Below, piece by piece: positions 1,146 through 16,162 of a stretch of DNA of 20,103 nt. The notes below the pieces were generated by a model that did no database searches, was not told the origin of the DNA, and saw only the letters and a program-made list of their open reading frames with translations. Source of the stretch: a virus. Where the stretch lies: positions 1-20,103 of the IMG/VR virus record IMGVR_UViG_3300010373_000507. One strand, written 5' to 3'. A program made the translations under genes and the position numbers. Position 1 is the stretch's first letter. Every line of letters starts with the position of its first letter.

Positions 1146-1327
1146 CCCTGGAAAACCTCAAGTGCGACTGCGGGAAGGTGGAACTGTTCTCCATCTTTCC
1201 CGGACATGAAGCAGACCGACACTCACTCATTGGCTTGCTGGAATGCCCCGAACCGCTGCGGTGTTGGTGTGCGGATTGCTGGTCACGGAAGTTTGGTGGC
1301 AGCGATGAAGTGGGGAAGGTGGTATGA
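1142..1327 (+). CDS. Small Cys-rich protein, possible zinc ribbon (61 aa)
   Basis: This small gene is tied to both neighbours by ATGA overlaps, the main reason for believing it is real. Six cysteines are grouped as CDC (residues 8-10), C35, CWC (41-43) and C46, a pattern compatible with one zinc-binding site. The C-terminus is short and charged. No known family is recognised, and there is no signal peptide or membrane segment. Its position between a GcrA-like regulator and a VirB11-like ATPase suggests a regulatory or adaptor role, but no function can be assigned. Confidence 0.6.
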   Translation: MTLENLKCDCGKVELFSIFPGHEADRHSLIGLLECPEPLRCWCADCWSRKFGGSDEVGKVV

Positions 1328-2355
1328 GCGGGGTTCTCAGTCCATTGCACCATCGCCCGGCCGGCGATTCGACGCTTCGGCGGCTGCTGACACCCTTCGA
1401 TCGGTTCCTCGCTGATCCTGGCACGCGGGAGGTTGTGGTCAATCGGCCGGGCGAGATCGGCGTCGAGAACGTGGATGGCTGGACGTGGCTGAACACGCCC
1501 GAGATGGACTTTGACCGGCTGGAGGAAATTGCCATCCTCGCCGGTTTCCAGACAGCGCGGGATGTCGATAGCGAGCATCCGCTGTGCCGATCGACGCTGC
1601 CGGACGGGCAGCGCATTCAGATTTGCCGGCCGCCCGCCACGGCGCCTGGCATCATTTCCCTTGCCATTCGCCGGCCCGCGCAGACAGCGCGCAGTGTAGA
1701 CGACGACGATTTCGAGGGGTTGTTCGCCACGGCCAATGCAGGGCCGTCACGGCGCTCCCGTGCGGATTCCGAGTTGGTTGCGCTCTACATGGCGCACGAC
1801 TGGCGAGCATTCTTCAAGTTGGCACGGCAGGCTCGCAAGAGCTTCGGATTCACTGGCGTAACCGGGTCCGGCAAAACGGACATGCTCAAGCGTCTGCTTA
1901 ATCTAACTTCCGACAGCGTGCGTGTGGTTTCCTTAGAGGATAACGCAGAATTTGGAGACATCGGCACTCGCAATAGGGTGTCACTGTTTTACGGTGACGA
2001 TCACGCCAAGATCGCGCCCGAGGAAGCTCTTAGAGCAAGTCTGCGTCTGCGGCCCGACGAGATATGGATGCAAGAGGTTACAGGAGCAGAGGCGTTTACG
2101 TATATTCGCGCGCTTGCTGCCGGACATCCTGGCGGCGGAACTTCCTGGCACGCCGAGGAAGGTCACGAGTTTGATGCGCTGGAGTTGATGGTTAAGCAGC
2201 ATCCTGCGGGGCGTGAGATACCGGACATTCGTAAATTCCTGCGCACGTATTTGGACATAGTTGTTTGGTGCGCGCGTGGCGAGGATGGCTTTAGTGCGCC
2301 AAGGGTGTGGTTCAAGGCTGCGGAAGATGCGGGAATGATGGAGGCGGGGAAGTGA
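1324..2355 (+). CDS. virB11: VirB11-like type IV secretion ATPase
   Basis: VirB11 proteins are hexameric ATPases on the cytoplasmic face of T4SS that drive pilus assembly and substrate transfer. The N-terminal domain spans about residues 15-120. The RecA-like domain has Walker A GVTGSGKT (178-185), an Asp box VVSLEDNAEF (201-210), the segment LRLRPDEIWMQE (240-251) holding Walker B, and a His box AGHPGGGTSWHA (266-277). The length of 343 aa is normal for VirB11. The start is an ATGA overlap with a strong upstream GGGGAAGGTGG. Oddities: the usual GE(I/L/M)R after RPD reads QEVT, so the conserved Arg is missing, and the gene stands 3 kb from the other T4SS genes, fused by overlap to a methyltransferase gene. 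A GspE/PilT-type ATPase is the alternative, but the spacing of the motifs and the length fit VirB11 best. Confidence 0.88.
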   Translation: MSGVLSPLHHRPAGDSTLRRLLTPFDRFLADPGTREVVVNRPGEIGVENVDGWTWLNTPEMDFDRLEEIAILAGFQTARDVDSEHPLCRSTLPDGQRIQICRPPATAPGIISLAIRRPAQTARSVDDDDFEGLFATANAGPSRRSRADSELVALYMAHDWRAFFKLARQARKSFGFTGVTGSGKTDMLKRLLNLTSDSVRVVSLEDNAEFGDIGTRNRVSLFYGDDHAKIAPEEALRASLRLRPDEIWMQEVTGAEAFTYIRALAAGHPGGGTSWHAEEGHEFDALELMVKQHPAGREIPDIRKFLRTYLDIVVWCARGEDGFSAPRVWFKAAEDAGMMEAGK

Positions 2356-3035
2356 GCCGCATCGAGCGCATTGGCGATGCGGTTTTGTATCTCGGGGATT
2401 GCCGCGAGATTTTGCCGACGCTTAGCGGCGTTGATGCGGTGGTCAGCGACCCTCCTTATGGCATCGCGCACGTCAAGGGCGCTGGCGGAAAAGGCAAGCA
2501 CAATCGACGCAACATTGCCCCCATATTTGGCGATGACATTCCGTTCAACCCGACCGAATGGCTGAATTTCTCCGAGGTGATTCTATGGGGCGCCGACCAC
2601 TATGCCGCCCTGTTGCCGCACGGGCGTTGGCTCGTGTGGGACAAACTCGATGGCGTCGCGTCTTACGATTCATTCTCTGACATAGAAGTCGCCTGGTCCA
2701 ATCAGCGCGGCGCATCGCGCATCTTCCGGCATTTATGGAAAGGTATATGCCAAGCGTCTGAAAAAGATGCTCGGCGTGAGCACCCCACGCAAAAACCAGT
2801 TGCACTGATGGAGTGGTGCGTCGGCTTCGTTAAGGGACACACTATCCTAGACCCTTTCATGGGCAGCGGCACAACGGGCGTTGCGTGCGCCAAACTCGGC
2901 CGCAGATTCGTCGGCATAGAAATTGAGGAACGCTATTTCGAGAGCGCCTGCCACCGCATCGAAGAAGCACAACGCCAGCCGGACATGTTCGTGGCGCCAG
3001 TCGCTAAAGCTGAGCAGATCGAGATTGCGCTATGA
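2352..3035 (+). CDS. Beta-class DNA methyltransferase (N6-adenine or N4-cytosine)
   Basis: This enzyme should transfer a methyl group from S-adenosylmethionine to an exocyclic amine of adenine or cytosine. Motif IV DPPYG lies at residues 33-37, HPTQKP at 144-149 and the AdoMet-binding motif DPFMGSGTT at 167-175. The order catalytic motif, then recognition region, then AdoMet motif marks the beta class, which includes CcrM and HinfI. I chose the GTG at 2352, which overlaps the virB11 stop as GTGA; it gives the typical N-terminus SRIERIGDAVLYLGDC and has GGAGGCGGGG upstream. At 227 aa it is short and lacks the extra C-terminal domain of CcrM. No partner restriction enzyme is obvious, so it is probably an orphan methylase protecting the phage DNA or acting in regulation. 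The target site cannot be read from sequence. Confidence 0.9.
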   Translation: MSRIERIGDAVLYLGDCREILPTLSGVDAVVSDPPYGIAHVKGAGGKGKHNRRNIAPIFGDDIPFNPTEWLNFSEVILWGADHYAALLPHGRWLVWDKLDGVASYDSFSDIEVAWSNQRGASRIFRHLWKGICQASEKDARREHPTQKPVALMEWCVGFVKGHTILDPFMGSGTTGVACAKLGRRFVGIEIEERYFESACHRIEEAQRQPDMFVAPVAKAEQIEIAL

Positions 3036-3939: not shown

Positions 3940-5063
3940 GAACCGGCGGTATCATGGCAGATTGGGATTGGAAGTCGGCAGGCAATGGAGCCGATGCGAT
4001 CCCGTTCCCTCTTGAGTTCTTTCATACTATTCAGCCGTCGCTTGACGCCTCAGACTTCGTTGAGGGGCTTCTCACGTCGGCTGCCATGTCCGTTATCTAT
4101 GGCGAGAGCACAAGCGGGAAGACGTTTTTTGCCACCGATCTCGGATTGCATGTCGCTCGCGGTGGTCAGTGGAATGGTAGGGACATTGACAGGGGCGCGG
4201 TGATCTATTGCGCTCTTGAGGGAAGCCACGGCATACGCAATCGTGTTGCTGCATTCAGAACGTTCTATGGATTGGATGATGCAGAGCTACCGTTTGCAGT
4301 CGTGCCTGTTAATATCAATATGCTCGATGCCACGCAAGGAGAAGTCGATAGGCTGATACAAACCATCAAGTTCGTTATGACGAAGATGGGAATGCCTGTC
4401 GTTCTTATAATTATGGATACGCTGTCGCGAGCGATGGCTGGCGGTAATGAGAACACGTCAGAAGATATGGGTTCTCTCGTTATCAATGGGGCCAGGATAC
4501 AGCAAGAGACAGGCGCGCACGTTTGCTGGGTCCATCACTCGGGCAAAGATTCCGCCAAGGGTGCCCGTGGGCATAGCCTCTTAAGAGCTGCGACTGATAC
4601 AGAAATTGAGATAGTGGTGGAGGGCCACGCTCGGACTGCCACGGTCATGAAGCAGCGGGACATGGAGTGTGTCGGCACGTTCAACTTTGAATTGGAGGTT
4701 GTGGAACTAGGGACGAATCGGCGCGGAAAGCCTGTAACATCGTGCGTGGTCCAGTACGGAGACATGGAGACATCTGAGGATGTCTCCAATGTCTCCAGGG
4801 GCCGGAAAGTGCCTACAGGACGGCCACAAGTGGCCTATCGCATCCTTTGCGATCTGGTCAGTGAGGCTGGCGAATCGGGTCACAGGGGCGCCCCAGACGG
4901 CGTTTTGACCGTGCCCGAGGAATGGTGGCGTGAACGCTTCTACGATCGAGCCCTGCCTGGGGCTGATCGTAAGACGAGGGAAAAGGCATACCGCCGGGCG
5001 GCGGATACCCTCATAGAGCACCACGCTATTGCCTGTTCTGGTGAGCGCGTATGGCTTGGATAA
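3936..5063 (+). CDS. RepA-like RecA-fold replicative helicase/ATPase (AAA_25 type)
   Basis: AAA_25/RepA-type ATPases are hexameric RecA-fold proteins used by plasmids and phages as replicative helicases. Walker A GESTSGKT is at residues 56-63, Walker B VVLIIMDT at 155-162, the sensor-like HHSGKD at 200-205 and the family block RGHSLLRAATDTEIEI at 211-226. Residues 305-375 look like a winged-helix DNA-binding domain. I chose ATG 3936 because it overlaps the previous stop (ATGA); GTG 3927 and ATG 3954 are in-frame alternatives. No primase or zinc-binding domain is present. Part of the GGAGACAT repeat array lies inside the gene (4758-4796, encoding GDMETSEDVSNVS) and the rest directly behind it, as expected when an initiator or helicase gene neighbours its own origin. 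Confidence 0.85.
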   Translation: MRTGGIMADWDWKSAGNGADAIPFPLEFFHTIQPSLDASDFVEGLLTSAAMSVIYGESTSGKTFFATDLGLHVARGGQWNGRDIDRGAVIYCALEGSHGIRNRVAAFRTFYGLDDAELPFAVVPVNINMLDATQGEVDRLIQTIKFVMTKMGMPVVLIIMDTLSRAMAGGNENTSEDMGSLVINGARIQQETGAHVCWVHHSGKDSAKGARGHSLLRAATDTEIEIVVEGHARTATVMKQRDMECVGTFNFELEVVELGTNRRGKPVTSCVVQYGDMETSEDVSNVSRGRKVPTGRPQVAYRILCDLVSEAGESGHRGAPDGVLTVPEEWWRERFYDRALPGADRKTREKAYRRAADTLIEHHAIACSGERVWLG

Positions 5064-5222
5064 CGTTCCCATCGCGCAACTGGAGACATGGAGACATTAG
5101 GAGACATGTCTCCTTGTCTCCGCCGGAGATGGAGACATTTGGGGGGGAATACCCCTTTAGGGGTATCCCCCATTGTCTCCTGTTTCGATTTGTCGCCAAA
5201 CGGAGACATGCAAAATGTCTCC
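4758..5222. repeat. Array of 13 GGAGACA(T) words in both orientations; candidate origin or operator cluster
   Basis: The word GGAGACAT occurs on the + strand starting at 4758, 4766, 5082, 5090, 5100, 5131 and 5202. Its complement (ATGTCTCC, or TTGTCTCC at 5114 and 5173) starts at 4780, 4789, 5106, 5114, 5173 and 5215. Copies are arranged as tandem pairs facing inverted pairs: one group lies inside the RepA-like gene (4758-4796) and a near copy of the same arrangement just after it (5082-5121), which includes the perfect 14-bp palindrome GGAGACATGTCTCC (5100-5113). A last pair (5202-5222) has a 5-base spacer. The 7-base core is seen elsewhere in the window only at a few scattered places, so this density is not chance. 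Possible roles are an origin bound by the RepA-like protein or another phage protein, a repressor operator, a partition site, or RNA hairpins. Confidence 0.85.
5131..5180. other. Long hairpin with G-run/C-run arms framed by the repeats
   Basis: The centre is a perfect inverted repeat ATACCCC (5149-5155), TTTA loop, GGGGTAT (5160-5166). It is extended by a run of 7 G (5141-5147) and a run of 5 C (5167-5171), and on the outside by GGAGACAT (5131-5138) and TTGTCTCC (5173-5180). It lies between the RepA-like gene and the zinc-finger gene. No T-run follows on the + strand, so it is not a standard terminator. A structured origin, a DNA cruciform or an RNA element that separates two expression units are all possible. 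Confidence 0.6.
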
Positions 5223-5240: not shown

Positions 5241-5411
5241 ATGAGCGGTTCCCGCCCTCCCTACCGCGATCCGTCCCTGCCCACGCCGCCCCCGGTGGAT
5301 AGCCCTACGTGGAGCCGATGGAACTGTCCGAACTGCACGTTCAACAACTCCCCGTTGTGCGAGTTCTGCGCGCGCTGCGGCGAGCCCAAACCCAAAGGAA
5401 CAAAAACATGA
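5241..5411 (+). CDS. RanBP2-type zinc-finger miniprotein (56 aa)
   Basis: Residues 27-46 fit the RanBP2-type zinc-finger pattern W-x-C-x2-C-x3-N-x6-C-x2-C exactly (WNCPNCTFNNSPLCEFCARC). In eukaryotes this finger binds ubiquitin or single-stranded RNA; in bacteria and phages such small fingers are of unknown role. The N-terminus is Pro-rich and the C-terminus basic. I chose ATG 5241, after the repeat array; an in-frame ATG at 5088 would only add residues encoded by the repeats. The upstream ribosome-binding site is weak. The stop overlaps the virB5 start (ATGA), so the two should be co-translated. A nucleic-acid-binding or assembly adaptor role is a guess. Confidence 0.7.
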   Translation: MSGSRPPYRDPSLPTPPPVDSPTWSRWNCPNCTFNNSPLCEFCARCGEPKPKGTKT

Positions 5412-6169
5412 TCCGCCTGGTCGCCCTGACCGTGGGATGCCTCCTGGCCGCGCTGGCGCCGGCTAGAGCACAAATCCCCGTCACGGACGCCGCCAACCTC
5501 GGCCAGCAGCTTCTCCACTACGGCCAGATGCTCAAGGACTACGCCCAACAGGGCCTGCAATACGCACGCCAAGGGCAGCAGCTTGAACAGGAAATCCAAT
5601 CCACCCTGACCCTTGAGCAGCAGCTACAAGCCTTCGTGCAAAACCCCAACCTGGGCTCCGCTATGGGCCTGATGAGCATGGCGGGTCTGCAAAACCCCCT
5701 GCCGGTCAATCCCTACGCTGTCCAAAGCTTGCTGAGCGGGCAGGGGGGTATTTCCGGTGCTCTCGGACAGCTTTCCTCGCTGACCACCGGCTCCTACAAC
5801 GCGAACAGCTATTACAATTCCAACAATGGCACATGGTCAGGACAAGAGGCTGCAAATCGTGCGAATGGAATAGCAGGAGCGCAGGGCATTGGCATGGTAT
5901 CGCTACAACAGATCGCGGCGCACATTCCTATCTTACAAGATTTGCGCACTCGCCTCGCGACTGCGACAACGCCCAAAGAAGTTCAAGACGCGCAAGCCGC
6001 GTTAGCAACCGAACAGGCGTGGGCGAGCGAGACAGGATCGCAGATACAAGCCTCTGCATTGATGTATGCCGCGCAGAGAGATGCTAACAATGAACGGGAA
6101 AATGAGCAGCTAAATAAGTCGATTGATGATAACCTGGCACAAGCTAAGGCAAAGGGATACTGGCAATGA
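5408..6169 (+). CDS. virB5: VirB5-like T4SS minor pilin
   Basis: VirB5 proteins are exported to the periplasm and sit at the tip of the T4SS pilus, where they help contact the recipient cell. The mature protein begins QIPVTDAANL after a clear Sec signal peptide (residues 1-21, cleavage after ARA). Residues 27-75 form a Gln-rich helix of the family (LGQQLLHYGQMLKDYAQQ), an Asn/Tyr/Ser-rich loop lies at 128-141, and a long amphipathic helical region runs to the end (about 165-253). The length of 253 aa is typical. The ATG 5408 is fixed by the ATGA overlap and by the signal peptide. The next genes are EexN-like and VirB6, an order also seen in conjugation operons. Third-position GC drops near 5800, which may mark an old recombination point. 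Confidence 0.87.
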   Translation: MIRLVALTVGCLLAALAPARAQIPVTDAANLGQQLLHYGQMLKDYAQQGLQYARQGQQLEQEIQSTLTLEQQLQAFVQNPNLGSAMGLMSMAGLQNPLPVNPYAVQSLLSGQGGISGALGQLSSLTTGSYNANSYYNSNNGTWSGQEAANRANGIAGAQGIGMVSLQQIAAHIPILQDLRTRLATATTPKEVQDAQAALATEQAWASETGSQIQASALMYAAQRDANNERENEQLNKSIDDNLAQAKAKGYWQ

Positions 6170-6531
6170 AATTCACTCTGGCGCTGGCGGCTGGGGTTCT
6201 TGTTTCCTCGATGGCTCTTGCTTCCGAGGTTCGCACCGTCTCGTGGTATGTCGCGCATCCTGGCGCACTTGCTGCGGTCACAGCCGCTTGCAAAAATGAT
6301 CCGGGGCACGGCCGGCATAATGCCGATTGCTGGAATGCCGACGAAGCGCGTATCGAGATGAACCTGCGTTCGCCGGGGCATGTCGATATGACACCGCCGA
6401 GTGATCCGCGCTATTGGAGCATCCATCCCGAGCAACTGACGCAACGCTTGCTCATTTGCCATCGGATGCCGGCTCAATATCAAGCAGCCAATTTCTGCCC
6501 GTCCGCGTTCGCCGCTGGCGGTGGGAGGTAA
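6166..6531 (+). CDS. EexN-like T4SS entry-exclusion family protein
   Basis: EexN proteins are made by conjugative elements to stop the cell from receiving the same element again, and their genes often sit between virB5 and virB6, as here. The family pattern is visible as VSWYVAHP (residues 25-32), then CKNDPG (42-47), then DCWNADEA (54-61). Residues 1-19 form a Sec signal peptide (cleavage after ALA). There is no lipobox Cys, so unlike many EexN proteins this one is probably free in the periplasm. Extra Cys at 98 and 111 could form a disulphide. The start overlaps the virB5 stop (ATGA). In a phage setting it could act in superinfection or conjugation exclusion; that is inferred. Confidence 0.72.
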   Translation: MKFTLALAAGVLVSSMALASEVRTVSWYVAHPGALAAVTAACKNDPGHGRHNADCWNADEARIEMNLRSPGHVDMTPPSDPRYWSIHPEQLTQRLLICHRMPAQYQAANFCPSAFAAGGGR

Positions 6532-6534
6532 ACT

Positions 6535-6720
6535 ATGTTCCGCTCAAGTCTAATCCCGTTGGGGGTTGCTGTCATCATCGCATATTGTGGTCTGGCGATG
6601 ATTAAGATGGCACTGTTGTTTGGTGGCACGTTGGGAGAATTTTCCTGCGGTGTGCTGCTGATCCTTGTCAGCGCATGGATGGCGTTTGCAATTCTCTTTC
6701 GACGCCGTGTGCTGCGATGA
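6535..6720 (+). CDS. Small membrane protein with two transmembrane segments (61 aa)
   Basis: GGGAGG stands 7 bases before the ATG. Residues 6-30 and 36-55 are hydrophobic and likely cross the inner membrane twice, ending in a basic tail (RRRVLR) that should stay in the cytoplasm. Its stop overlaps the virB6 start (ATGA), so it is probably made together with VirB6. The family is not recognised. It could be a small accessory subunit of the secretion channel. A holin is less likely, because no lysis gene lies nearby. Confidence 0.65.
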   Translation: MFRSSLIPLGVAVIIAYCGLAMIKMALLFGGTLGEFSCGVLLILVSAWMAFAILFRRRVLR

Positions 6721-7736
6721 ATGGTTGGACATTCTTTTCATGGATATTCCAACAGATCATCCCTCCGGTCATATCGTCCGTCCAGGCGATCATTTCTGCG
6801 CTTTCTGCGTATGTGGCACCTGTGCTGTTGGTTGCGATCGGTGCTTATCTTGCTGGTCGGCTTATTATGTTAGCCTATTCTCCAACCCAAGAGCCAATCG
6901 GCGTGTTTATGAAAACGCTGATGAAGTGCGCTATCGCATATTGGATCGTGGCATCTGCGGCAACCTACAATCAGTATCTCGGAACGCTGCTGCTAACCAC
7001 GCTCCCGACTGAGATCACGCGCGTTGTCTCAGGTGCTAGTGGCGGAAATCTGACAACTCTTCAAGGTCAGGTGTTCGATGACATTTGGGGCAAGGCGTGG
7101 TCTGCCGGGCTGGCAGTTTATCGCAACATTCCGTCCTACTCGTTCAAGGGTCTGGCGCTGGGTATGTTCATCGCCATGGTCTACTGGCCTGTTGCGCTGA
7201 TCTGCATATCCATTGGCTTCATGGTGTTTGTCGTCGCACAATTCGCGCTCGCGCTCTTGGTCGCGGTCGGCATCCTGTTCGCTGCCTTGTTTCCGTTCAC
7301 GGCATCGCGTGCCTACTTTGATCGCTGGCTTTCTGCCTGCCTGACTATGATCCTGCTGCAAGTGTTCATTGTTGCGGTGCTGACCATCCTCACCGCGGCG
7401 GAAAGCGCGGTCATCGCGCAGCTCGCCATGCACAACGGCACGTTTACCTCGGGCGACGAGATCGCCCAGCTCCAAATCCTGTTCGGTGGGCTACTCCTGT
7501 TCATCGTGGCAGGCATTGCCGCCTATCGCCTGCCAGGGCTTGCAGAGGCCGTGGGCGGGGGCGTGGTGGTGGACGTGGCGGCGTTCGGTGGCGCTGCCTA
7601 TGTGGCAGGCGCATCGGCCGCTGGGCTGCTGTCGGGCGCCGCTATCGGGGCTACCAGCGCTGCCGTATCTTCCGGCTCGCGATCTGTCAGTGCCATTGAG
7701 GGAATGAGCCCAACCGGCCCGTCTCTGTCAGGTTGA
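6717..7736 (+). CDS. virB6: VirB6-like T4SS inner-membrane channel protein
   Basis: VirB6 is the polytopic inner-membrane subunit of T4SS that lies in the substrate path. This 339-aa protein has at least five hydrophobic stretches (around residues 28-50, 66-88, 140-190, 202-228 and 248-270) and the family-type segment LFPFTASRAYFDRWLSACL, followed by a Gly/Ala-rich C-terminal tail rich in small residues. I chose ATG 6717 because it overlaps the previous stop (ATGA) and gives the N-terminus MNGWTFFSWIF; an in-frame ATG at 6675 would lie within the previous gene. It closes the visible T4SS cassette; VirB7-10 do not follow, since the next genes are a NusG paralogue and phage structural genes. 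Confidence 0.87.
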   Translation: MNGWTFFSWIFQQIIPPVISSVQAIISALSAYVAPVLLVAIGAYLAGRLIMLAYSPTQEPIGVFMKTLMKCAIAYWIVASAATYNQYLGTLLLTTLPTEITRVVSGASGGNLTTLQGQVFDDIWGKAWSAGLAVYRNIPSYSFKGLALGMFIAMVYWPVALICISIGFMVFVVAQFALALLVAVGILFAALFPFTASRAYFDRWLSACLTMILLQVFIVAVLTILTAAESAVIAQLAMHNGTFTSGDEIAQLQILFGGLLLFIVAGIAAYRLPGLAEAVGGGVVVDVAAFGGAAYVAGASAAGLLSGAAIGATSAAVSSGSRSVSAIEGMSPTGPSLSG

Positions 7737-7799
7737 CACGGTGACGCGCGGGCCAATAGCGTTTGGAAATTGGGCAGCCCCTGCGAGCGGGCGTCGTGT

Positions 7800-7822
7800 A
7801 GCGTTCAGCCGAAGCTTTTTTT
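7800..7822 (+). terminator. Terminator-like hairpin touching the NusG-paralogue start codon
   Basis: AGCGTTC (7800-7806) pairs with GAAGCT (7811-7816), with one bulged G and an AGCC loop, and is followed by a run of seven T (7816-7822). The next base is the A of the ATG of the NusG-like gene. The stem is short, so termination may be partial. It would separate the T4SS cassette from the morphogenesis block, or regulate the NusG paralogue itself. No ribosome-binding site is visible between the hairpin and the ATG. Confidence 0.5.
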
Positions 7823-8371
7823 ATGAGCCCCGACCCGCGATGGTTCGTCGTCAGCACATATCCCCAAGCCGAGTTCCAAGTGTGGGCCGCGCTGGGCAAG
7901 GACTTCCGACGCCATCTGCCGACGATTGTTGCCTACAGGCAGAAAATGCGTCATGGCCGCCCGGTTCTGATGCAGGGGCGCCGATCGTCGGAGCCGGTGA
8001 TTCGTCCATTCTTCCCCGGCTATCTGTTTGTCGAGCTGGATTTGCCGGGGCAGGATTGGGGCTCGATCGGACGCACCCAAGGGGTAAAGCGCCTTTTGAG
8101 CACCCCGGAGCATCGCCCCTTGCCTGTGCCTGTTGGTTTTGTTGAGGCTCTGATGGCGCAGGGCAGGGCAGGCGATGGAGCCATTGATCCAGGAGCCGCA
8201 GCCAAATTCCCGACGCTGGCGCCTGGTCAGAGGGTCCGCGTGACGGTCGGCGGGTCAGACATCGATAGCGTGGTTCACATGGCTGCCGAGGAACGGGTTT
8301 GGGTTCTGCTGCGGTTGTTCGATCGTGAGACAGTGACGGAGGTTCCTCGCGGTTCTGTCAGAGAGGTTTGA
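7823..8371 (+). CDS. NusG/RfaH-like transcription antitermination paralogue
   Basis: Specialised NusG paralogues bind RNA polymerase and stop pausing and termination in particular long operons. The NGN domain covers residues 6-112, with RWFVVSTYPQAE at the front, the hallmark FFPGYLFVELDL (63-74) and the conserved TQGVKRLL (85-92). A KOW-type domain follows at about 131-178 (LAPGQRVRVTVGG). The length of 182 aa is normal. ATG 7823 is the only start that keeps the NGN domain, yet there is no Shine-Dalgarno site and a T7 run touches the ATG. It lies between the T4SS cassette and the morphogenesis genes, so either could be its target operon. No clear ops-like element was found by eye. Confidence 0.88.
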   Translation: MSPDPRWFVVSTYPQAEFQVWAALGKDFRRHLPTIVAYRQKMRHGRPVLMQGRRSSEPVIRPFFPGYLFVELDLPGQDWGSIGRTQGVKRLLSTPEHRPLPVPVGFVEALMAQGRAGDGAIDPGAAAKFPTLAPGQRVRVTVGGSDIDSVVHMAAEERVWVLLRLFDRETVTEVPRGSVREV

Positions 8372-8954: not shown

Positions 8955-9236
8955 ATGCCCAGACATAGATTTGAGCCCGGTAACAACTTTGGCAAGGGGC
9001 GTCCTCCTGGCTCTCGCAATAAGTTAGCTGAGAAGTTCCTTACTGTGCTCTTTAACGATTTCAATGAGCATGGTAAGGATGCAATACAGCGCGTGCGAGT
9101 TAGCGATCCTTCGACATATGTTCGCACTGTTGCCAGCGTTATTCCAAAAGAGATTACTGGCGAAGATGGGCACCCATTGTTCGATCAGGTGAAGGTTATC
9201 TTTGTCAAGTCAGATCGCAAGAAAGAGGCAGACTAA
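8955..9236 (+). CDS. DUF5681-like protein, candidate small terminase subunit
   Basis: The N-terminal pattern FEPGNNFGKGRPPGSRNKLAEKF (residues 6-28) is the basic Gly/Arg/Pro motif of DUF5681 proteins, which commonly stand directly before large terminase genes. The rest (to residue 93) is a compact helical segment followed by a short acidic/basic tail. Small terminase subunits recognise the packaging site and start cutting of the concatemer. The gene overlaps the large terminase start by 35 bases. At 93 aa it is short for a full small terminase, so it may be a reduced form or only a packaging accessory. The upstream ribosome-binding site is weak. Confidence 0.7.
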   Translation: MPRHRFEPGNNFGKGRPPGSRNKLAEKFLTVLFNDFNEHGKDAIQRVRVSDPSTYVRTVASVIPKEITGEDGHPLFDQVKVIFVKSDRKKEAD

Positions 9237-10509
9237 GCCGGCGCCTGTTGAGGCAGAATTTCCGGAAAAGCTTGCCTGTCTCTTTGAGGATAAACGCTAC
9301 ATCGTTCTGTATGGTGGCCGTGGCGGGGGCAAGAGCCACGGCGTAGCGCGTGCGCTATTGCTACAGGGCATGGAAAAGCCGCTTCGCATCTTGTGCTGTC
9401 GCGAGATGCAGAACTCTATTCGCGATAGCGTGCATCGCCTGTTGTCGGATCAGATAACGTTGATGGGATTGGAGGACTTCTATTCCATCGAGGTCGCAGA
9501 GATCAAAGGCATCAACGGCACGCTGTTTTCGTTCGTTGGCCTGCGACACAACGTAAGCGGCGTACGATCGTTCGAAGGTATCGACGTAGCGTGGTGCGAG
9601 GAAGCGCAGGTTATCTCTAAAGCGTCCTGGGGCGTGCTGATTCCCACGGTTCGCAAGCCGGACTCTCGCATCATCGTTACGTTCAATCCAGAGCTTGACA
9701 CTGATGCCACTTACCAGATGTTTGTCGTTAATCCCCCTCCGGACTCGATTGTTGTCAAGATCAACTATGACGACAATCCGTGGTTTCCTGAAGTGCTTCA
9801 GCGAGAGATGGAGTATCTAAAGGAGACAGACCCGGACGCTTATCTTACAACCTGGCTTGGACACTGCCGACAGACACTCGATGGGGCGATATACGCGCGC
9901 GAAATACGTCGAGCGACAGAGGATGGTCGGATCACGCGAGTTCCGTATGACGCAACCAAGCCGGTTCATTGTTTCTATGACCTCGGATGGGCAGATAATA
10001 CGTCTATATGGTTCGCTCAAATCATTGGTTTTGAGTACCACATCATTGACTACCTTGAGGGTTCTCAACAGCCCCTGACATACTATCTGCAAGAACTGCA
10101 AGCGCGCGGATATGTGTATGGGTTCGATTGGCTGCCGCACGACGGACAGAGCAAGCAGTTGGGCACGGGGCGATCGGTTGAGGAAATGATGCGGGCGGCT
10201 GGCAGACAGGTTCGCATTGTGCCGCGGCTGAGTGTGATGGACGGAATTAATGCGGCGCGGACTGTATTTGCAAATTGTTGGTTCGATGCAGAGAAGTGTG
10301 CGGACGGGCTTCAGTGCTTGCGGCGGTATCGGTACGACGTGGATAGCGAGACAGGGCAGCTTAGCAAGGTACCGCTTCACGATGCAGCATCGCACGGCGC
10401 GGATGCGTTTAGATATCTTTCGCTCGGGCTTCAGGATCGGGGCAAGCCAGCGGTGAAAAAGTTCATTCCCTCTTTCGTTCCCGGCCCGCAGGCATGGATG
10501 AGGCGATAA
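9202..10509 (+). CDS. terL: Terminase large subunit (phage packaging ATPase/nuclease)
   Basis: This motor pumps DNA into the prohead and cuts it at the end. Walker A GGRGGGKS lies at residues 38-45 and Walker B IDVAWCEEA at 127-135, with the coupling-type TFNPE at 160-164. The nuclease domain shows FYDLGWADN (258-266, Asp 260), LPHDG (311-315) and HGADAFRY near residue 408, giving the acidic residues that bind metal. The length of 435 aa fits PBSX/P22-like large terminases. The only start that keeps Walker A is TTG 9202, with AGGTGAAGG about 7 bases before it; it overlaps the preceding gene, so translation is probably coupled. Confidence 0.95.
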   Translation: MSSQIARKRQTKPAPVEAEFPEKLACLFEDKRYIVLYGGRGGGKSHGVARALLLQGMEKPLRILCCREMQNSIRDSVHRLLSDQITLMGLEDFYSIEVAEIKGINGTLFSFVGLRHNVSGVRSFEGIDVAWCEEAQVISKASWGVLIPTVRKPDSRIIVTFNPELDTDATYQMFVVNPPPDSIVVKINYDDNPWFPEVLQREMEYLKETDPDAYLTTWLGHCRQTLDGAIYAREIRRATEDGRITRVPYDATKPVHCFYDLGWADNTSIWFAQIIGFEYHIIDYLEGSQQPLTYYLQELQARGYVYGFDWLPHDGQSKQLGTGRSVEEMMRAAGRQVRIVPRLSVMDGINAARTVFANCWFDAEKCADGLQCLRRYRYDVDSETGQLSKVPLHDAASHGADAFRYLSLGLQDRGKPAVKKFIPSFVPGPQAWMRR

Positions 10510-10658
10510 TGCTTATAGATCGTAGGTGGAGAGTTTTTGAAAGAGAATGGCGCATTAGACTGGACATAGGCAGGCGCTTCTTTGGGATCGTAGTGTGGAC
10601 TGCAAAGAAGCCTCTGCATCTACGTGAGCCTTTGATTAATACGTGGATTGGCAGATAA
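10509..10658 (+). CDS. Small basic protein between terL and portal (49 aa)
   Basis: This short gene fills the gap between the terminase and portal genes exactly: its ATG overlaps the terL stop (TAATG) and its TAA is followed at once by the GTG of the portal gene. The protein is very basic and Trp/Arg-rich (RRWRVFEREWRIRLDIGRRF) with a short hydrophobic stretch near residues 24-31. No family is recognised. The tight packing on both sides is the main evidence that it is translated. Confidence 0.5.
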   Translation: MLIDRRWRVFEREWRIRLDIGRRFFGIVVWTAKKPLHLREPLINTWIGR

Positions 10659-12863
10659 GTGAACCGAGCTGACACGAAAATCGTTGATGAGGCCAAGGAG
10701 CGGTTTACCTATTGCGAAGAATGGGAGACGCAATTCCGCACGAACTACAAAAACGATATGAAGTTTGCGGAGGGCGATTCCTACAATGGCTGGCAGTGGA
10801 CCGCATCCTACGTTAACGATCGCAATAAGGAAGGCGCACCGTCGCTCACCATCAATAAGGTGCGGCAGCACAATCTACAGATCGTGAATGACGCGCGGCA
10901 GAACAAGCCGCAAATCCGCATCCAGCCTGTTGCCGATGGCGCGAGCAAGGAAGCGGCGCTGGTGTTCGAGGGTGTGTGCCGACACATCGAGTATATCAGC
11001 GATGCGCAAACCGCTTACGATACGGCAACTTATCATCAGGTATACGGTGGCATTGGTTATCTTAGGATCGTTACTGAGTATCCTGATACTGAATCGTTCG
11101 ATCAGGAAATCTACATCCGACGAGTTCACGATCCGTTGTCAGTCTACCTTGATCCCGACATTCAGATGTACGATGGTTCCGATGCGCGTTATGCCTTCAT
11201 TTTCAAGAACATGAGGCCGAAGCAGTTCGATGATAAATACCCCAAGTGGAAGGGGCGCGTTGGATATGATGTGCTCGGGGCGGATGATGACTGGTCGAAT
11301 AAAGAGAACGTGAGGGTAGCTGAGTATTTCCGCCGCTCGGATATCAATGATGCGTTGATGGAAATGCCGGCCAACCTGCATCCTGACATGCCTCAAGGCG
11401 GCATGGTAAAGCGTTCAGAGATCACGCCAGAGTGGGCGAGCGCGCTTGACGAAATGAAGGTGCGTTCGCGGCCTATCAAGCAGCCCAAGATCGAATGGTA
11501 TAAGATCGCAGGGGATCAGATCATTGAACGTGGCGTCTGGCCGGGCTCTTATATCCCGATTGCGCGTGTGGTTGGCGAAGAAACTATCATCGATGGAAGA
11601 TTGGATAGGAAGGGACACACGCGGGCGCTAATGGATGCGCAGCGCATGTATAACTACTGGTCCTCGTCGGCCGTTGAGCACGTTGCGTTGCAGACGAAAA
11701 CGCCTTGGGTTGGGCCGATGGAGACATTCGAGGAGTTCGGGCAGTATTATGAGAATGCCAACCTAGAGAATCGGGCGTTTCTGCCGCACAAATCGTATGA
11801 CGATCAGAACCGTAAGCTGGATCAGCCGACCAAGGTAATGCCGCCGGTCATGCCGAATGCCTACATGCAGGGCATGGAGACAGCGGCCAACGAATTGCTG
11901 ATGGCGAGCGGTCAGTATCAGGCAGAGATGGGCGAGCCCGGCAATGAGCGCAGCGGGACCGCGATCAACGCTCGGCAGCGGCAATCGGACAATGCGACCT
12001 ATCACTATGTGGACCATCTTTCGCAGTCCATTCGCTATCTTGGGCGTCAACTGATTGATCTAATCCCGCATATCTATGATACGCCGCGCGTCCTACGCAT
12101 TCTGGGCGAGGATGGCACGGAAAAGCACGTCAAACTCGATCCGAATGCCAAGAAGGCGATTGACGGCGATTTAGACCATCCTACTGACGCGGATGTGGGG
12201 GCGATCTTCAATCCGAACATCGGCAAGTATGATGTTGTTGCCGACATTGGCCCGGCTTATGCGACCAAGCGGCAGGAAGCGTTTAGTGGCTATCTGCAAA
12301 TCATGCAGCGTTCGCCGGATTTGATGGCAAAGGCGGGTGACATTTTCTTCTCGCAATCGGATATGCCGGGCGCGGAGGCGCTGGCTGATCGGTTGCAGAA
12401 GTTCCTACCGCCGCAGATTCTTGACGAGAAAGGGCCTGATCCGCAGGTGTTGCAGCTACAGCAGCAGATGCAAACGATGCACCAGGCTGCGACACAGACC
12501 CTTCAGCAAGCGGGGCAACAGGTCAAAGACTTGCAGCAACAGCTTGCCGACAAGCAGCACGAGTCAGACCGCAAGGATGCCGAGGTTAAGCTGAAGATGG
12601 CGCAGATGCACTTCGATCAGGTGCAAGCGACGACGACGGCGCGTTTTAATCAGCAGCTAGAGGAATACAAGGCGCAGACGGCGCGCATGGCCGCTGCCGC
12701 TGCCGCTGATCCGGCGATGATGAAGGTGTTGCTACGCGAGTTGGGTTCGCATGTGGTGCAAATGCCTATCGTGCCGTTAATGAAGGAACACGCTGTCAGC
12801 GATCAGGAGATGCAGCCGGAACCGGAGACGACGACGACGAATGGAAAGGGGCAGGCGGCTTAG
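10659..12863 (+). CDS. P22-like portal protein
   Basis: The portal is a twelve-subunit ring at one head vertex through which DNA enters and leaves. The 734-aa length is close to P22 gp1 (725 aa). Visible family features are the N-terminal helix with YNGWQWTASYVNDRN (residues 43-57) and ITINKV-like SLTINKVRQHN, the VYGGIGYLRIV segment near 129-139, the VHDPLSVYLDPDIQ segment near 156-169, and the region around GEPGNERSGTAINARQRQSD. The last 130 residues form a Gln-rich coiled coil, like the barrel helix of P22 portals. The start is GTG 10659, immediately after the preceding stop. It is followed by several small genes before the scaffold gene. Confidence 0.93.
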   Translation: MNRADTKIVDEAKERFTYCEEWETQFRTNYKNDMKFAEGDSYNGWQWTASYVNDRNKEGAPSLTINKVRQHNLQIVNDARQNKPQIRIQPVADGASKEAALVFEGVCRHIEYISDAQTAYDTATYHQVYGGIGYLRIVTEYPDTESFDQEIYIRRVHDPLSVYLDPDIQMYDGSDARYAFIFKNMRPKQFDDKYPKWKGRVGYDVLGADDDWSNKENVRVAEYFRRSDINDALMEMPANLHPDMPQGGMVKRSEITPEWASALDEMKVRSRPIKQPKIEWYKIAGDQIIERGVWPGSYIPIARVVGEETIIDGRLDRKGHTRALMDAQRMYNYWSSSAVEHVALQTKTPWVGPMETFEEFGQYYENANLENRAFLPHKSYDDQNRKLDQPTKVMPPVMPNAYMQGMETAANELLMASGQYQAEMGEPGNERSGTAINARQRQSDNATYHYVDHLSQSIRYLGRQLIDLIPHIYDTPRVLRILGEDGTEKHVKLDPNAKKAIDGDLDHPTDADVGAIFNPNIGKYDVVADIGPAYATKRQEAFSGYLQIMQRSPDLMAKAGDIFFSQSDMPGAEALADRLQKFLPPQILDEKGPDPQVLQLQQQMQTMHQAATQTLQQAGQQVKDLQQQLADKQHESDRKDAEVKLKMAQMHFDQVQATTTARFNQQLEEYKAQTARMAAAAAADPAMMKVLLRELGSHVVQMPIVPLMKEHAVSDQEMQPEPETTTTNGKGQAA

Positions 12864-12877
12864 GAAGGATGATTAAT

Positions 12878-13204
12878 ATGCAAGCAAATCAGGTAAATTA
12901 CGCATCTTCTCTTAATTCTGCTTCATCAATCCAGCCATCTCGCTCACAAACAGATGGCGTTCTAACCGAAGTGCGTTGTCAGATTGATGGTGCTTCCGAA
13001 AACATTGCGAATATGGCATTTAGAGTGGAGCAGCTTGGTGAACGGTTATTCGGTGCTATTCCAGCTTCTGATGATGAGAAGACTCCTGGCGTGCCTCATC
13101 CGGTTTCTGGGCATGTTGATGCTATTCAGCATGGGCTTATGTCCCTTAAGAATCAGCTTTCGCGTCTTGAGTCTGCGTTGTCCCGTGTCGAGAAGATTGG
13201 ATGA
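12878..13204 (+). CDS. Hypothetical coiled-coil protein (108 aa)
   Basis: I chose ATG 12878 because GGAAGG (12863-12868) lies 9 bases upstream; the in-frame ATG 12869 is directly against that site and too close. The protein has a Ser/Asn/Gln-rich N-terminus and two helical segments with heptad spacing (around residues 30-58 and 80-107, ending ALSRVEKIG). Family unknown. It is more AT-rich than the portal gene. The stop overlaps the next start (ATGA). A small head accessory role is suggested only by position. Confidence 0.6.
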   Translation: MQANQVNYASSLNSASSIQPSRSQTDGVLTEVRCQIDGASENIANMAFRVEQLGERLFGAIPASDDEKTPGVPHPVSGHVDAIQHGLMSLKNQLSRLESALSRVEKIG

Positions 13205-13461
13205 GGGTGCGTGAAGGGTTGGGTATTGCGATGTTCGTAGCAGGACACGACTTTGCCAGTTTGCGGCCGGGAGAACACTGCCAAGGCAGCGATTGCAAGG
13301 GCGTGAGTTCGTTGGTTGATCTCACGTCGTTGGCTGATGTGGTGCAGGATGGTGACAGTTTCGTGGCGCATACCGGCGTTCTGAATGAGCGCGAGATCGG
13401 TGAGATTAAGAATGCGCGGGACGAAATGCGAAAGGTCATTGAGATGGCATGGGGGGCGTAA
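13201..13461 (+). CDS. Hypothetical protein (86 aa)
   Basis: The gene is coupled to both neighbours: ATGA at the start and TAATG at the stop. The protein is soluble with an alpha/beta look, carries two Cys (residues 27 and 32 in EHCQGSDCKG), and a helical C-terminus (EIGEIKNARDEMRKVIEMAW). I do not recognise the family. Similar small genes of unknown role often lie between portal and scaffold in phage late operons. Confidence 0.6.
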   Translation: MRVREGLGIAMFVAGHDFASLRPGEHCQGSDCKGVSSLVDLTSLADVVQDGDSFVAHTGVLNEREIGEIKNARDEMRKVIEMAWGA

Positions 13462-13670
13462 TGTTATTTGATTCTATGTTAGATGCGCGTGCATGGGCTT
13501 TTGAAAGACTGCTGCAGAACAGGTTTAGGAATCAGTCCGATTATCAGAATATGGGTATGGGAGGATTGCGACAGTCAACTCCCATTTCATTTGTGATGAC
13601 TGATGCAGAAGTTGTGGCTCAGTGGCTGTGGAATGGCCCTGACAAGCCGTGCGAGAAATGCGGCAAGTGA
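13461..13670 (+). CDS. Hypothetical protein with C-terminal CxxC (69 aa)
   Basis: ATG 13461 overlaps the preceding stop (TAATG) and follows a GGGGGGC purine-rich run; ATG 13449 is an in-frame alternative adding four residues. The N-terminal half is helical (MLDARAWAFERLLQNRF), the middle is Gly/Met/Gln-rich and the end is PCEKCGK, which is a single CxxC knuckle and not a full zinc finger. Family not recognised. It is the last gene before the 215-base gap ahead of the scaffold gene. Confidence 0.55.
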   Translation: MLFDSMLDARAWAFERLLQNRFRNQSDYQNMGMGGLRQSTPISFVMTDAEVVAQWLWNGPDKPCEKCGK

Positions 13671-13711
13671 ATTCGAGCGCCGATTTCTGAACGCCAGCTC
13701 AGAAGTCGCGC

Positions 13712-13777
13712 CGGCTCCGGGCTCCTGTGCGGGTGTCTGCTCCTCCCGAGCCGCCTGCATGGTAGAGCCCGGAGCCG
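13712..13777. repeat. 13-bp perfect inverted repeat before the scaffold gene
   Basis: CGGCTCCGGGCTC (13712-13724) is matched by GAGCCCGGAGCCG (13765-13777), with a 40-base spacer that is itself GC-rich. It lies in the 215-base gap 13671-13885, which has no convincing gene. No T-run follows. It could be a folded RNA leader controlling the scaffold and coat genes, a protein-binding site or a remnant of an inserted element. The remaining gap holds only the scaffold ribosome-binding site (GGGAG, 13876-13880). Confidence 0.6.
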
Positions 13778-13885
13778 ACTGGCTGCCTTCTTCCCCAAGG
13801 CGGCGGGAGACTAACGTATTTTGTTGCCTTGCTGGACTCCGATACCGCCGCACGGGTGGTAAACTGTTTGTGTTCGGGAGATTTT

Positions 13886-14689
13886 ATGAGCGAAACGGAA
13901 AGCGTCGCCGGCCCGCAGGAAGGCGCTGAACAGCCAAATCCGACGCCAGCGGAGGGCGCTCAGCCGGCAGAGGCGCAGCCGGCACCGGCAGCCGCGGAAC
14001 CCGCTGAAACGGCGTCAGAGCCTGCGCCAGAGGAAGCCAAAGAGGAACAACAGCCGCCGCGGCAGGCGTGGTGGCAGAAGCGAATCGATGAGATCACGCG
14101 CGCGCGGCAGGATGCGGAGCGTGAGGCGCAAAGGCTAAGACAGGAGATCGAGCAATATCGCCGGCCAGCTGATCCGAATGCGCCGCCAGGCCAGCAATCG
14201 CCCGCTCCTGCCAATCTGACGGATGCGCAGATCGAGGAACGCGCCAACTTTATCGCTACGCAGCGCGAGTATCAGAAGTCGATTGCGCGCACGATCGATG
14301 CTGGCAATGTCAAATACGGTGAGCCTGCCTTTAATGCAGCTTGCAACACGCTGGCGAGCCTTGGCGCAAATGAGCGCCCCGAGTTCATGCAGGCTGTTAC
14401 AGAGCTATCCAACGGCGCGGACGTGTTGCAACACCTTGGCGCGCATCCCGAGATTGCCGCGCCGCTGATGCATCTGCCGCCGCTGCGTATGGCAATGGAA
14501 CTGGCGCGGTTGGAGCGCCAGGTGACGGCGCCGCCTGCGCCCAAGCCGCTGTCTCGCGCGCCAGCGCCGATTGCGCCGATTGAGGGTGGCGTAAGTCAAG
14601 CGGAACCTGATATATATGATCCGAATATTTCGACTGAGCGCTTCATTGCGCTCAGAAACAAGCAAGAGGCCGCGCGTCGCGGTCGATAA
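13886..14689 (+). CDS. Phage scaffolding protein
   Basis: Scaffolding proteins guide coat assembly and leave the head before DNA is packed. The assignment rests on position (between portal and coat), acidic composition and helical layout. Residues 1-60 are Ala/Pro/Glu-rich and disordered, 62-100 form a charged coiled coil (WWQKRIDEITRARQDAEREAQ), then comes a helical middle with NLTDAQIEERANF (112-124), and the end is basic (FIALRNKQEAARRGR), as expected for the coat-binding helix-turn-helix tail of P22-like scaffolds. The length of 267 aa is close to P22 gp8 (303 aa). ATG 13886 with GGGAG upstream is preferred over the longer frame starting at 13829. Confidence 0.78.
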   Translation: MSETESVAGPQEGAEQPNPTPAEGAQPAEAQPAPAAAEPAETASEPAPEEAKEEQQPPRQAWWQKRIDEITRARQDAEREAQRLRQEIEQYRRPADPNAPPGQQSPAPANLTDAQIEERANFIATQREYQKSIARTIDAGNVKYGEPAFNAACNTLASLGANERPEFMQAVTELSNGADVLQHLGAHPEIAAPLMHLPPLRMAMELARLERQVTAPPAPKPLSRAPAPIAPIEGGVSQAEPDIYDPNISTERFIALRNKQEAARRGR

Positions 14690-14716
14690 GGCGCCTTCGC
14701 ACGCCACCTGAATGCG

Positions 14717-14788
14717 ATGCGACTAGCATCCCCCCGTCTTTGGCCGGGCAAAGCCAATGCGACTAAGCCGACCGGAATGGATGCGACT
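14717..14788 (+). repeat. Three copies of ATGCGACT ahead of the coat gene
   Basis: ATGCGACT occurs at 14717-14724, 14757-14764 and 14781-14788 in the non-coding gap before the coat gene. The first copy lies in a small hairpin (GATGC at 14716-14720, GCATC at 14726-14730). Spacing is irregular (40 and 24 bases). This may be a protein-binding site or simply low-complexity sequence in a regulatory leader. No convincing gene is seen in 14690-14893. Confidence 0.45.
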
Positions 14789-14816
14789 TCCTACCCTTTT
14801 CTTCCACTCCTGAAAT

Positions 14817-14846
14817 AACCCCAAGAGCTTTCGAGTGAGGGGTTTT
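14817..14846 (+). terminator. Probable intrinsic terminator or attenuator before the coat gene
   Basis: AACCCC (14817-14822) pairs with GGGGTT (14839-14844) and is followed by a T-run (14843-14846), with a partly paired interior that includes CT-TTCG-AG. It lies between the scaffold and coat genes, where many phages raise coat expression with separate RNA ends. The run of four T is short, so the effect may be partial. Confidence 0.5.
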
Positions 14847-14855
14847 GTCTGTAGC

Positions 14856-14876
14856 GCCGCGCGTGGAATGCGCGGC
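14856..14876 (+). other. GC-rich hairpin just upstream of the coat ribosome-binding site
   Basis: GCCGCGC (14856-14862) pairs perfectly with GCGCGGC (14870-14876) around a 7-base loop (GTGGAAT). It is followed by TTTC and then AGGAG (14881-14885), the ribosome-binding site of the coat gene. Such a stem at the 5' side of a strongly translated gene can protect the message or leave the ribosome site open. Confidence 0.5.
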
Positions 14877-14893
14877 TTTCAGGAGTGCGTCCT

Positions 14894-16162
14894 GTGGCTA
14901 ATGCGCTTATCACCAACCAAATGATTGCCGTGGAGTCTATCCGACTCTGGCACAACGAAAATGCCTTTCTGAACAACGTCAACGGTCAGTACAACGACGA
15001 ATTTGCCAAGGCCGGCGCGAAAGCCGGCCAGAGCATCCGCATTCGCGCGCCGGTCGATTACATCATCCGCACCGGCCCGACTGCCGTTGTGCAAGACACC
15101 ATCGAGCCCATCGTCAACCTGACGGTGGCAAGTCAGGCCGGCGTTGACATGAGCTTTAGCTCTGTCGATCGCACTATGACAATCGACAAGTTCAGCGAAC
15201 GCTACATTCGCCCGGCCATCAACGTGACGGCGGGCTATGTTGCGGTGACGCTCATGGCCGCGTCCGAAGGTGGTGCGTCCGGCTGGTCGGCTAACGTTAA
15301 CGACACGACCGGCGCGCTGTCCTCGCCTGTCGCGGCAACGTGGCTGAATGCCAAGGCCAATCTGACCAAGGCATCCCCGCCAACGTCAGACAAGCGAATC
15401 GTGATGGACCCCGTGACGGAAGCCAACACGGTTTCGACCCTCTCCGGTCTGTTCAATTCCCAGCCCCTCATTGCCAAGCAGTACGAGTCCGGCTCGATGA
15501 TGCGGGCGTTGGGCTTCGATTGGATGAGCGATGTTACTGCGATCATCCATACCACCGGCACGCTCGCGACTTCACCAACCTGGGTTCCGTCGCCGGTTTC
15601 CGGTTGGAGCTTCGGTACGTTGAACGCCGCGAATCAGGGCCTGACTGCGACAAGCTCTCTGACGGTCACGGCGCTGACTGGCACGCTGAAGATGGGCGAC
15701 ATTATCTGCATCGCTGGCGTTCAGGGTGTGAATCGCATTACGAAGCAGGCCACGGGGCGTTTGCGCAACTTCACCGTGACGGCGGATGTGGCGTCTGGCG
15801 CGACTGCCATTCCCATCGCACCGCCGCTGCTCGGTCCCGCCGCCGGTCCCGTGCTTCAGCCGCAGCAGACGGTCAATGCTGTTCCGGCGACGAATGCGGT
15901 CATCTATAGCCGCGCGCCGGCCAGCTCGATCTATCGCAAGAACCTCGCATATCACCCGGACGCTATTACGCTCGCTATGGTGGACCTGATCGAGCCGCCG
16001 AACGTCGAGGTTTCGCGCAAGAGCCAAGATACCGTCAGCGTGCGTGTGCTGACACAGTATCAGGGCACCAGCGATCAGCTTCTGACACGTCTCGATATCC
16101 TGTTCGGGCAAGCATACCTGCGGCCCGAGTGGATCGAGATTGTCCCTGATCCCGTCGTATAG
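14894..16162 (+). CDS. P22-like major coat protein
   Basis: This builds the capsid shell in the HK97 fold. The 422-aa length is close to P22 gp5 (430 aa). The start is GTG 14894, with AGGAG 8 bases upstream; GTG 14885 overlaps that site and is rejected. Family features are the N-terminal helix with TNQMIAVESIRLWHN, the segment GQSIRIRAPVDYI (residues 46-58), the DMSFSSVDRTMTIDKFSERYIRPAI region near 90-114, and the beta-rich insertion SLTVTALTGTLKMGDIICIAGV near 252-273, which matches the P22 coat I-domain in position and style. The end, around EWIEIVPDPVV, is also typical. It follows the scaffold gene and precedes the tail genes. Confidence 0.92.
   Translation: MANALITNQMIAVESIRLWHNENAFLNNVNGQYNDEFAKAGAKAGQSIRIRAPVDYIIRTGPTAVVQDTIEPIVNLTVASQAGVDMSFSSVDRTMTIDKFSERYIRPAINVTAGYVAVTLMAASEGGASGWSANVNDTTGALSSPVAATWLNAKANLTKASPPTSDKRIVMDPVTEANTVSTLSGLFNSQPLIAKQYESGSMMRALGFDWMSDVTAIIHTTGTLATSPTWVPSPVSGWSFGTLNAANQGLTATSSLTVTALTGTLKMGDIICIAGVQGVNRITKQATGRLRNFTVTADVASGATAIPIAPPLLGPAAGPVLQPQQTVNAVPATNAVIYSRAPASSIYRKNLAYHPDAITLAMVDLIEPPNVEVSRKSQDTVSVRVLTQYQGTSDQLLTRLDILFGQAYLRPEWIEIVPDPVV

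Follow-up and report, generated by a model that had tools for sequence, protein, structure and literature searches.

Conjugative pili are assembled on a stalk formed by VirB6, its base, and VirB5, its tip, and this assembly is powered by VirB4 and VirB11 (PMC12624023). The succession virB5-eexN-virB6 is the gene order of conjugation operons (PMC13381706). In F and SXT/R391, entry exclusion is directed against the VirB6-type protein TraG of the donor; for the IncN, IncP and IncW systems the exclusion target is unknown, and the exclusion gene abuts virB6 (PMC11493245). Plasmids are also excluded by non-conjugative elements, namely integrative and mobilizable elements that carry the exclusion factor Sfx (PMC11493245). 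SGI1, a mobile island without a full T4SS of its own, brings along three mating-pore subunits that take the place of the corresponding ones of its IncC helper, and exclusion is evaded through its VirB6-type TraG (PMC5389848). Exchange of heterologous VirB5 between systems is likewise on record, to the extent that it is cited in PMC5389848.

Here, genes of this kind were found in a virus. The window, i.e. the whole 20,103-bp stretch of DNA analysed, spans the entire linear virus record IMGVR_UViG_3300010373_000507; the contig is an incomplete phage genome, and all absences reported for the window cover these 20 kb only. Like SGI1 with its traN, traH and traG genes, the phage carries, in the 20 kb seen, a few subunits without a full T4SS, including an exclusion-linked VirB6-type protein. 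In contrast, SGI1 has F-type subunits and is transferred through conjugation by its helper, whereas the phage is tailed, has P-type VirB5, VirB6 and VirB11 and brings its own EexN; subunit replacement is proven for SGI1 only. The pKM101-type EexN system of IncN plasmids belongs to the same family as the phage protein (NF033894), and its gene also lies between virB5 and virB6. However, phage EexN exceeds the 65-residue model, its exclusion activity is a prediction, and by eye it shows no lipobox cysteine; its plasmid relatives likewise have no obvious one where it would be expected. With the Sfx elements the phage would share an exclusion factor against plasmids that is carried by a non-conjugative element, but Sfx is an unrelated surface-exclusion lipoprotein, and the elements encoding it have no T4SS subunits. 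The operons of Acetobacteraceae and Azospirillum plasmids match the phage in gene order, strand and homologous proteins. These plasmids have the full virB1-virB11/virD4 set, whereas the window contains only virB5, eexN and virB6, with virB11 elsewhere and no further T4SS part visible; an additional 61-aa gene precedes virB6 in the phage.

The contig covers part of the genome of a P22-like tailed phage. Profile searches identified the large terminase (phrog_3717, 3.5e-61), the portal (phrog_156, 1.5e-114) and a P22 coat protein (PF11651, 1.6e-24), and the genes for TerL, P22-type portal, scaffold and coat are consecutive, in an order shared with L007 (as far as the portal), L169 and PAE2. Upstream of this head and packaging region lies the conjugation-gene cassette (Table 1), in which virB5, eexN, the 61-aa gene and virB6 are all on the plus strand with every reading frame intact. 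The T4SS family matches within the cassette are far beyond chance, and gene order and strand are those of conjugation operons. Profile matches and comparison with the plasmid operons thus confirmed the virB5, eex, virB6 arrangement that the original prediction had recognized; its further statement that this was the only T4SS cluster visible proved wrong, because the window also encodes an intact virB11.

Table 1. Features of the window discussed in the text (all on the plus strand; positions are those of the window).
Feature	Position	Strand	Match or remark
virB11 (T4SS ATPase), 343 aa, intact	1324..2355	+	TIGR02788 1e-67, full length
Left flank: phage zinc-ribbon gene, likely start 5242	5242..5411	+	55% identical in L007
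virB5 (pilus-tip / stalk protein), 253 aa	5408..6169	+	PF07996 1.5e-21, residues 22-231
eexN-family gene, 121 aa, predicted exported	6166..6531	+	NF033894 EexN 2.6e-14
61-aa ORF, two hydrophobic stretches (two-TM)	6535..6720	+	matches no family
virB6 (inner-membrane stalk base), 339 aa	6717..7736	+	PF04610 5.1e-21, residues 57-277
15-bp GCGTCGTGTAGCGTT, common to L007, upstream of nusG; phage homology restarts here	7791..7805	+	
Right flank: NusG/RfaH-like antiterminator gene	7823..8371	+	PF02357 3e-14; 77% in L007, 76% in L169
Head and packaging genes TerS, TerL, portal, scaffold, coat	8955..16162	+	phrog_3717, phrog_156, PF11651

For VirB5, VirB6 and VirB11 the profile matches extend over most of the protein. 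VirB5 additionally matched TIGR02791 (3e-13, under the equivalog cut-off), and the VirB6 family profile matched TrwI of the solved R388 T4SS (7.5e-16). VirB11 scored 228.3 bits against TIGR02788, just under the equivalog cut-off of 249.95, and matched the solved VirB11 2gza with 4.6e-48. EexN reached 52.9 bits against NF033894 (cut-off 33) and is encoded just upstream of virB6, from which only the 61-aa ORF separates it; its N-terminus is signal peptide-like, and all four conserved cysteines are retained. The genes are tightly packed: virB5 begins within an ATGA shared with the end of the zinc-ribbon gene, and eexN within an ATGA shared with the end of virB5. The virB6 ORF extends from 6675 to 7736, but its start is most likely at 6717 rather than 6675, since this ATG is coupled to the TGA stop codon of the gene before it (ATGA) and the resulting MNGW... 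terminus aligns with the starts of plasmid VirB6 proteins. The 61-aa ORF has no counterpart at the equivalent place in the plasmid operons. Its assignment as a VirB2 pilin was rejected, as 126 of 2000 shuffles reached its score.

Comparison with sister phages located both T4SS pieces as additions to a conserved phage layout. The nearest sister contig, L007 (terminase 88%; portal 95% over the first 124 residues), has the order gcrA - methyltransferase - VRR-NUC-like gene - ... - zinc ribbon - nusG - terS - terL - portal. It has no virB11 behind gcrA, and its slot between zinc ribbon and nusG holds a single 69-aa ORF. In a second relative, L169 (portal 62%, nusG 76%), the layout is similar and two different small ORFs fill the slot. 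On the left side of the cassette, homology to L007 ends with the zinc-ribbon gene (DNA match at 5242-5304 by blastn), and on the right it restarts at 7791, 55 nt past the virB6 stop. The virB11 of the window follows gcrA and precedes the methyltransferase gene, and ATGA and GTGA overlaps join it to these neighbours. Because the sister phages keep the flanking genes without either T4SS piece, the cassette and virB11 are, judged by this comparison, two accessory insertions in the phage genome.

The nearest homologues of the inserted genes are found in complete conjugation operons on Acetobacteraceae plasmids. The plasmid matches to VirB6 comprised six alphaproteobacterial plasmids only, and those to VirB5 a single one, Roseomonas p3-AD3. 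All six plasmids carry full operons; five of them have eexN flanked by virB5 and virB6, and the Methylorubrum plasmid has it past the coupling-protein gene instead. Identity to the Roseomonas mucosa p3-AD3 proteins was 35% for VirB5, 35% for VirB6 and about 45% for EexN (range given, 35-46%). In phylogenetic trees, phage VirB5 and VirB6 each grouped with p3-AD3 (support 0.99 and 0.96 respectively) inside a clade of plasmid homologues; VirB11 fell into the same plasmid clade, its exact position not being resolved. On these trees and matches, the ancestry of the T4SS genes is of plasmid type, with p3-AD3 foremost among the relatives. The VirB11 of p3-AD3 itself (L004 13985-14896), though encoded within a full operon, has GSSKT as an altered Walker A motif and falls short of its relatives in length.

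That a phage carries four intact T4SS-related genes at two sites where its closest relatives have none suggests that it meddles with the conjugation machines of its host's plasmids. Our first-ranked reading, to which we assign a probability of roughly 0.4, is that the genes form an exclusion and subunit-substitution cassette acting on T4SS machines encoded elsewhere in the cell. It is ranked first because the cassette follows the logic of SGI1: parts that bear on assembly, pilus tip and exclusion identity are combined with an exclusion protein, and no structural core is in view. The phage would have acquired intact subunits of an Acetobacteraceae-type conjugative T4SS at two places and maintained them in its upstream gene cluster as accessory genes ('morons'): the cassette between the zinc-ribbon and nusG-like genes, virB11 next to gcrA on the methyltransferase side. 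The cassette would be expressed together with the phage operon, and the T4SS targets of its products are most likely encoded elsewhere. In the envelope, EexN would stop incoming transfer from donors whose VirB6 it recognizes, while phage VirB6, VirB5 and VirB11 would take over as stalk base, pilus tip and ATPase in a conjugation machine that the cell already contains. Such substitution would alter the abilities of the machine or the exclusion system it obeys, as SGI1 does on IncC plasmids, and the phage would presumably benefit. Against this stand several points: EexN by itself would be enough for exclusion, so that the gain from VirB5, VirB6 and VirB11 is not obvious; the cassette comes from one contig only; and VirB11 carries changes beside its active site (see below). 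A bolder version is improbable in our judgement, namely that VirB5, VirB6, VirB11 and a matching exclusion protein are a minimal T4SS 'refit kit' that rebuilds the machines of resident plasmids to the advantage of the phage; a virus would then be following the strategy of SGI1, and its genome might even be passed on by conjugation. No relaxase was matched among the window ORFs, so the analogy with SGI1 may stop at remodelling; an oriT is not recognizable from sequence alone.

The condition of VirB11 bears on whether the subunits would instead poison a resident T4SS, as the original prediction had also proposed. Phage VirB5, VirB6 and VirB11 might enter such a machine as wrong subunits and jam it, so that conjugation stops or the pilus is lost; being intact and retaining many conserved residues, they could assemble. 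VirB11 departs from its family at T186D, R246E and R253T, sites at which at least 92% of 36 relatives share the conserved residue; all three adjoin the active site, R253T directly following the Walker B glutamate, and could yield dead mixed hexamers. On the other hand, the Walker A Lys-Thr (GSGKT), the Walker B Glu (E251) and the His box (GH...HA) are all retained, and p3-AD3 VirB11, inside a complete operon, deviates at just as many conserved columns (eight in each protein). A dead, dominant-negative VirB11 was thus not established. Moreover, a single jamming subunit would suffice, yet four genes have been retained, and residue retention in VirB5, VirB6 and VirB11 fits replacement equally well. 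We therefore regard poisoning as unlikely. The broader prediction of an exclusion or interference unit fared better: such a role is reasonable because a block of conjugation genes lies as an accessory insertion in an ordinary phage and its EexN retains most of the conserved residues, but the poisoning part of the proposal did not gain support.

About equally doubtful is that the genes are neutral passengers, plasmid segments caught by illegitimate recombination that play no role for the phage. The gene order is merely that of the plasmid operon, there is one contig, and sister phages do without the genes. However, there are two separate T4SS insertions with intact frames and start/stop overlaps with phage genes, and their residues are still constrained. 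With the positions invariant among five plasmid operons as reference, the phage proteins kept 21 of 23 (EexN), 31 of 42 (VirB6), 75 of 101 (VirB11) and 25 of 43 (VirB5); p3-AD3, processed in the same way, kept 21/21, 31/45, 75/120 and 25/39 respectively. This comparable retention suggests that the constraint on the phage proteins is roughly that seen in a complete operon of similar divergence. The GC3 of the four T4SS genes (0.61-0.67) has adapted to the phage level, the plasmids being higher (0.75-0.98), which speaks against a recent graft or a chimeric assembly; given residues kept as in p3-AD3 and a phage-like GC3, the genes appear neither decayed nor likely to be an assembly chimera. In addition, headful phages of about 43 kb rarely retain 3.4 kb of idle DNA for long.

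Less probable still is a larger or complete T4SS scattered over the unseen remainder of the phage or of a phage-plasmid. The contig is incomplete, T4SS genes already occur at two places, and an AAA_25 ATPase gene with iteron-like repeats looks plasmid-like. But the window's 20 kb contain no further part, and a search with 25 plasmid T4SS/transfer proteins, which picked up virB5, eexN, virB6 and virB11 in the window, detected no T4SS in the entire sister records of 43.3 kb (L169) and 44.4 kb (L009); a full virB set would take about 10 kb extra, besides the missing tail, lysis and integration genes.

Searches for further cases returned none. VirB5, EexN and VirB6 had no match among the 50,697 phage records of INPHARED, where VirB11-like matches were confined to unannotated faecal 'Bacteriophage sp.' contigs and one large Microcystis phage. 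Scans of IMG/VR with VirB6, VirB11, VirB5 and EexN, singly or as alignments, gave no second case, a weak negative, as they relied on short peptide patterns and may omit near-identical records. Family searches for VirB6 and VirB5 found nothing in 50 records, which included 48 terminase-relative virus contigs, the VirB5 search matching no control genome either, and that for VirB11 nothing in 39 records. Close prophages were not found in bacterial genomes, where the family sampled as a group was probably Rhizobiaceae, and the open-licence literature yielded nothing on virB5, virB6 or eexN in phages or on phage-encoded inhibition of conjugation. The cassette is thus known from one metagenomic contig, as would fit a misjoining of plasmid DNA to phage contigs; this is very improbable, given that both insertions are internal, with phage genes on either side, overlapping start and stop codons at the borders and a phage-like base composition. 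Conjugation machinery is a known phage receptor, e.g. for PRD1. It is similarly far-fetched, however, that phage VirB5, as the pilus tip (PMC12624023), or VirB6 changes a conjugative pilus so that pilus-dependent phages fail to infect, since no window feature indicates pilus use and known exclusion proteins target conjugative entry, not phage entry.

If the cassette does act on plasmid conjugation machines, phages would have a means of directing or blocking plasmid transfer from within the cell, using parts taken from the machine itself. Because the phage took EexN along with virB6, the gene for the suspected target, phage-plasmid competition would be tied to the unknown target of EexN-type exclusion, and the EexN-virB6 pairing would become testable in a minimal natural setting.

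Several other features of the contig were noted. A GcrA-like regulator and a CcrM-like adenine methyltransferase are encoded at 612-1145 and 2352-3035; this pair controls the alphaproteobacterial cell cycle, and its presence indicates that the host is probably an alphaproteobacterium. A scan for promoters gave none above chance. Directly upstream of the NusG/RfaH-like gene, the element GCGTCG(T/C)GTAGCGTT occurs at 7791-7805 in the window, at 4840-4854 in L007 and at about 7992-8006 in L169, and its 12-bp core, TCG(T/C)GTAGCGTT, is present in one copy in each of the three. The GTAGCGT within this element resembles the ops element, the recruiter of RfaH. Finally, a GGAGACA(T) repeat is present in 13 copies, in both orientations, at 4758-4796 and 5082-5222 (17 in the whole window), at the 3' end of the AAA_25 (RepA-like) gene and directly past it. 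L007 and L169, whose replication genes differ, have no such array, which looks like an iteron-type replication origin or an operator array.
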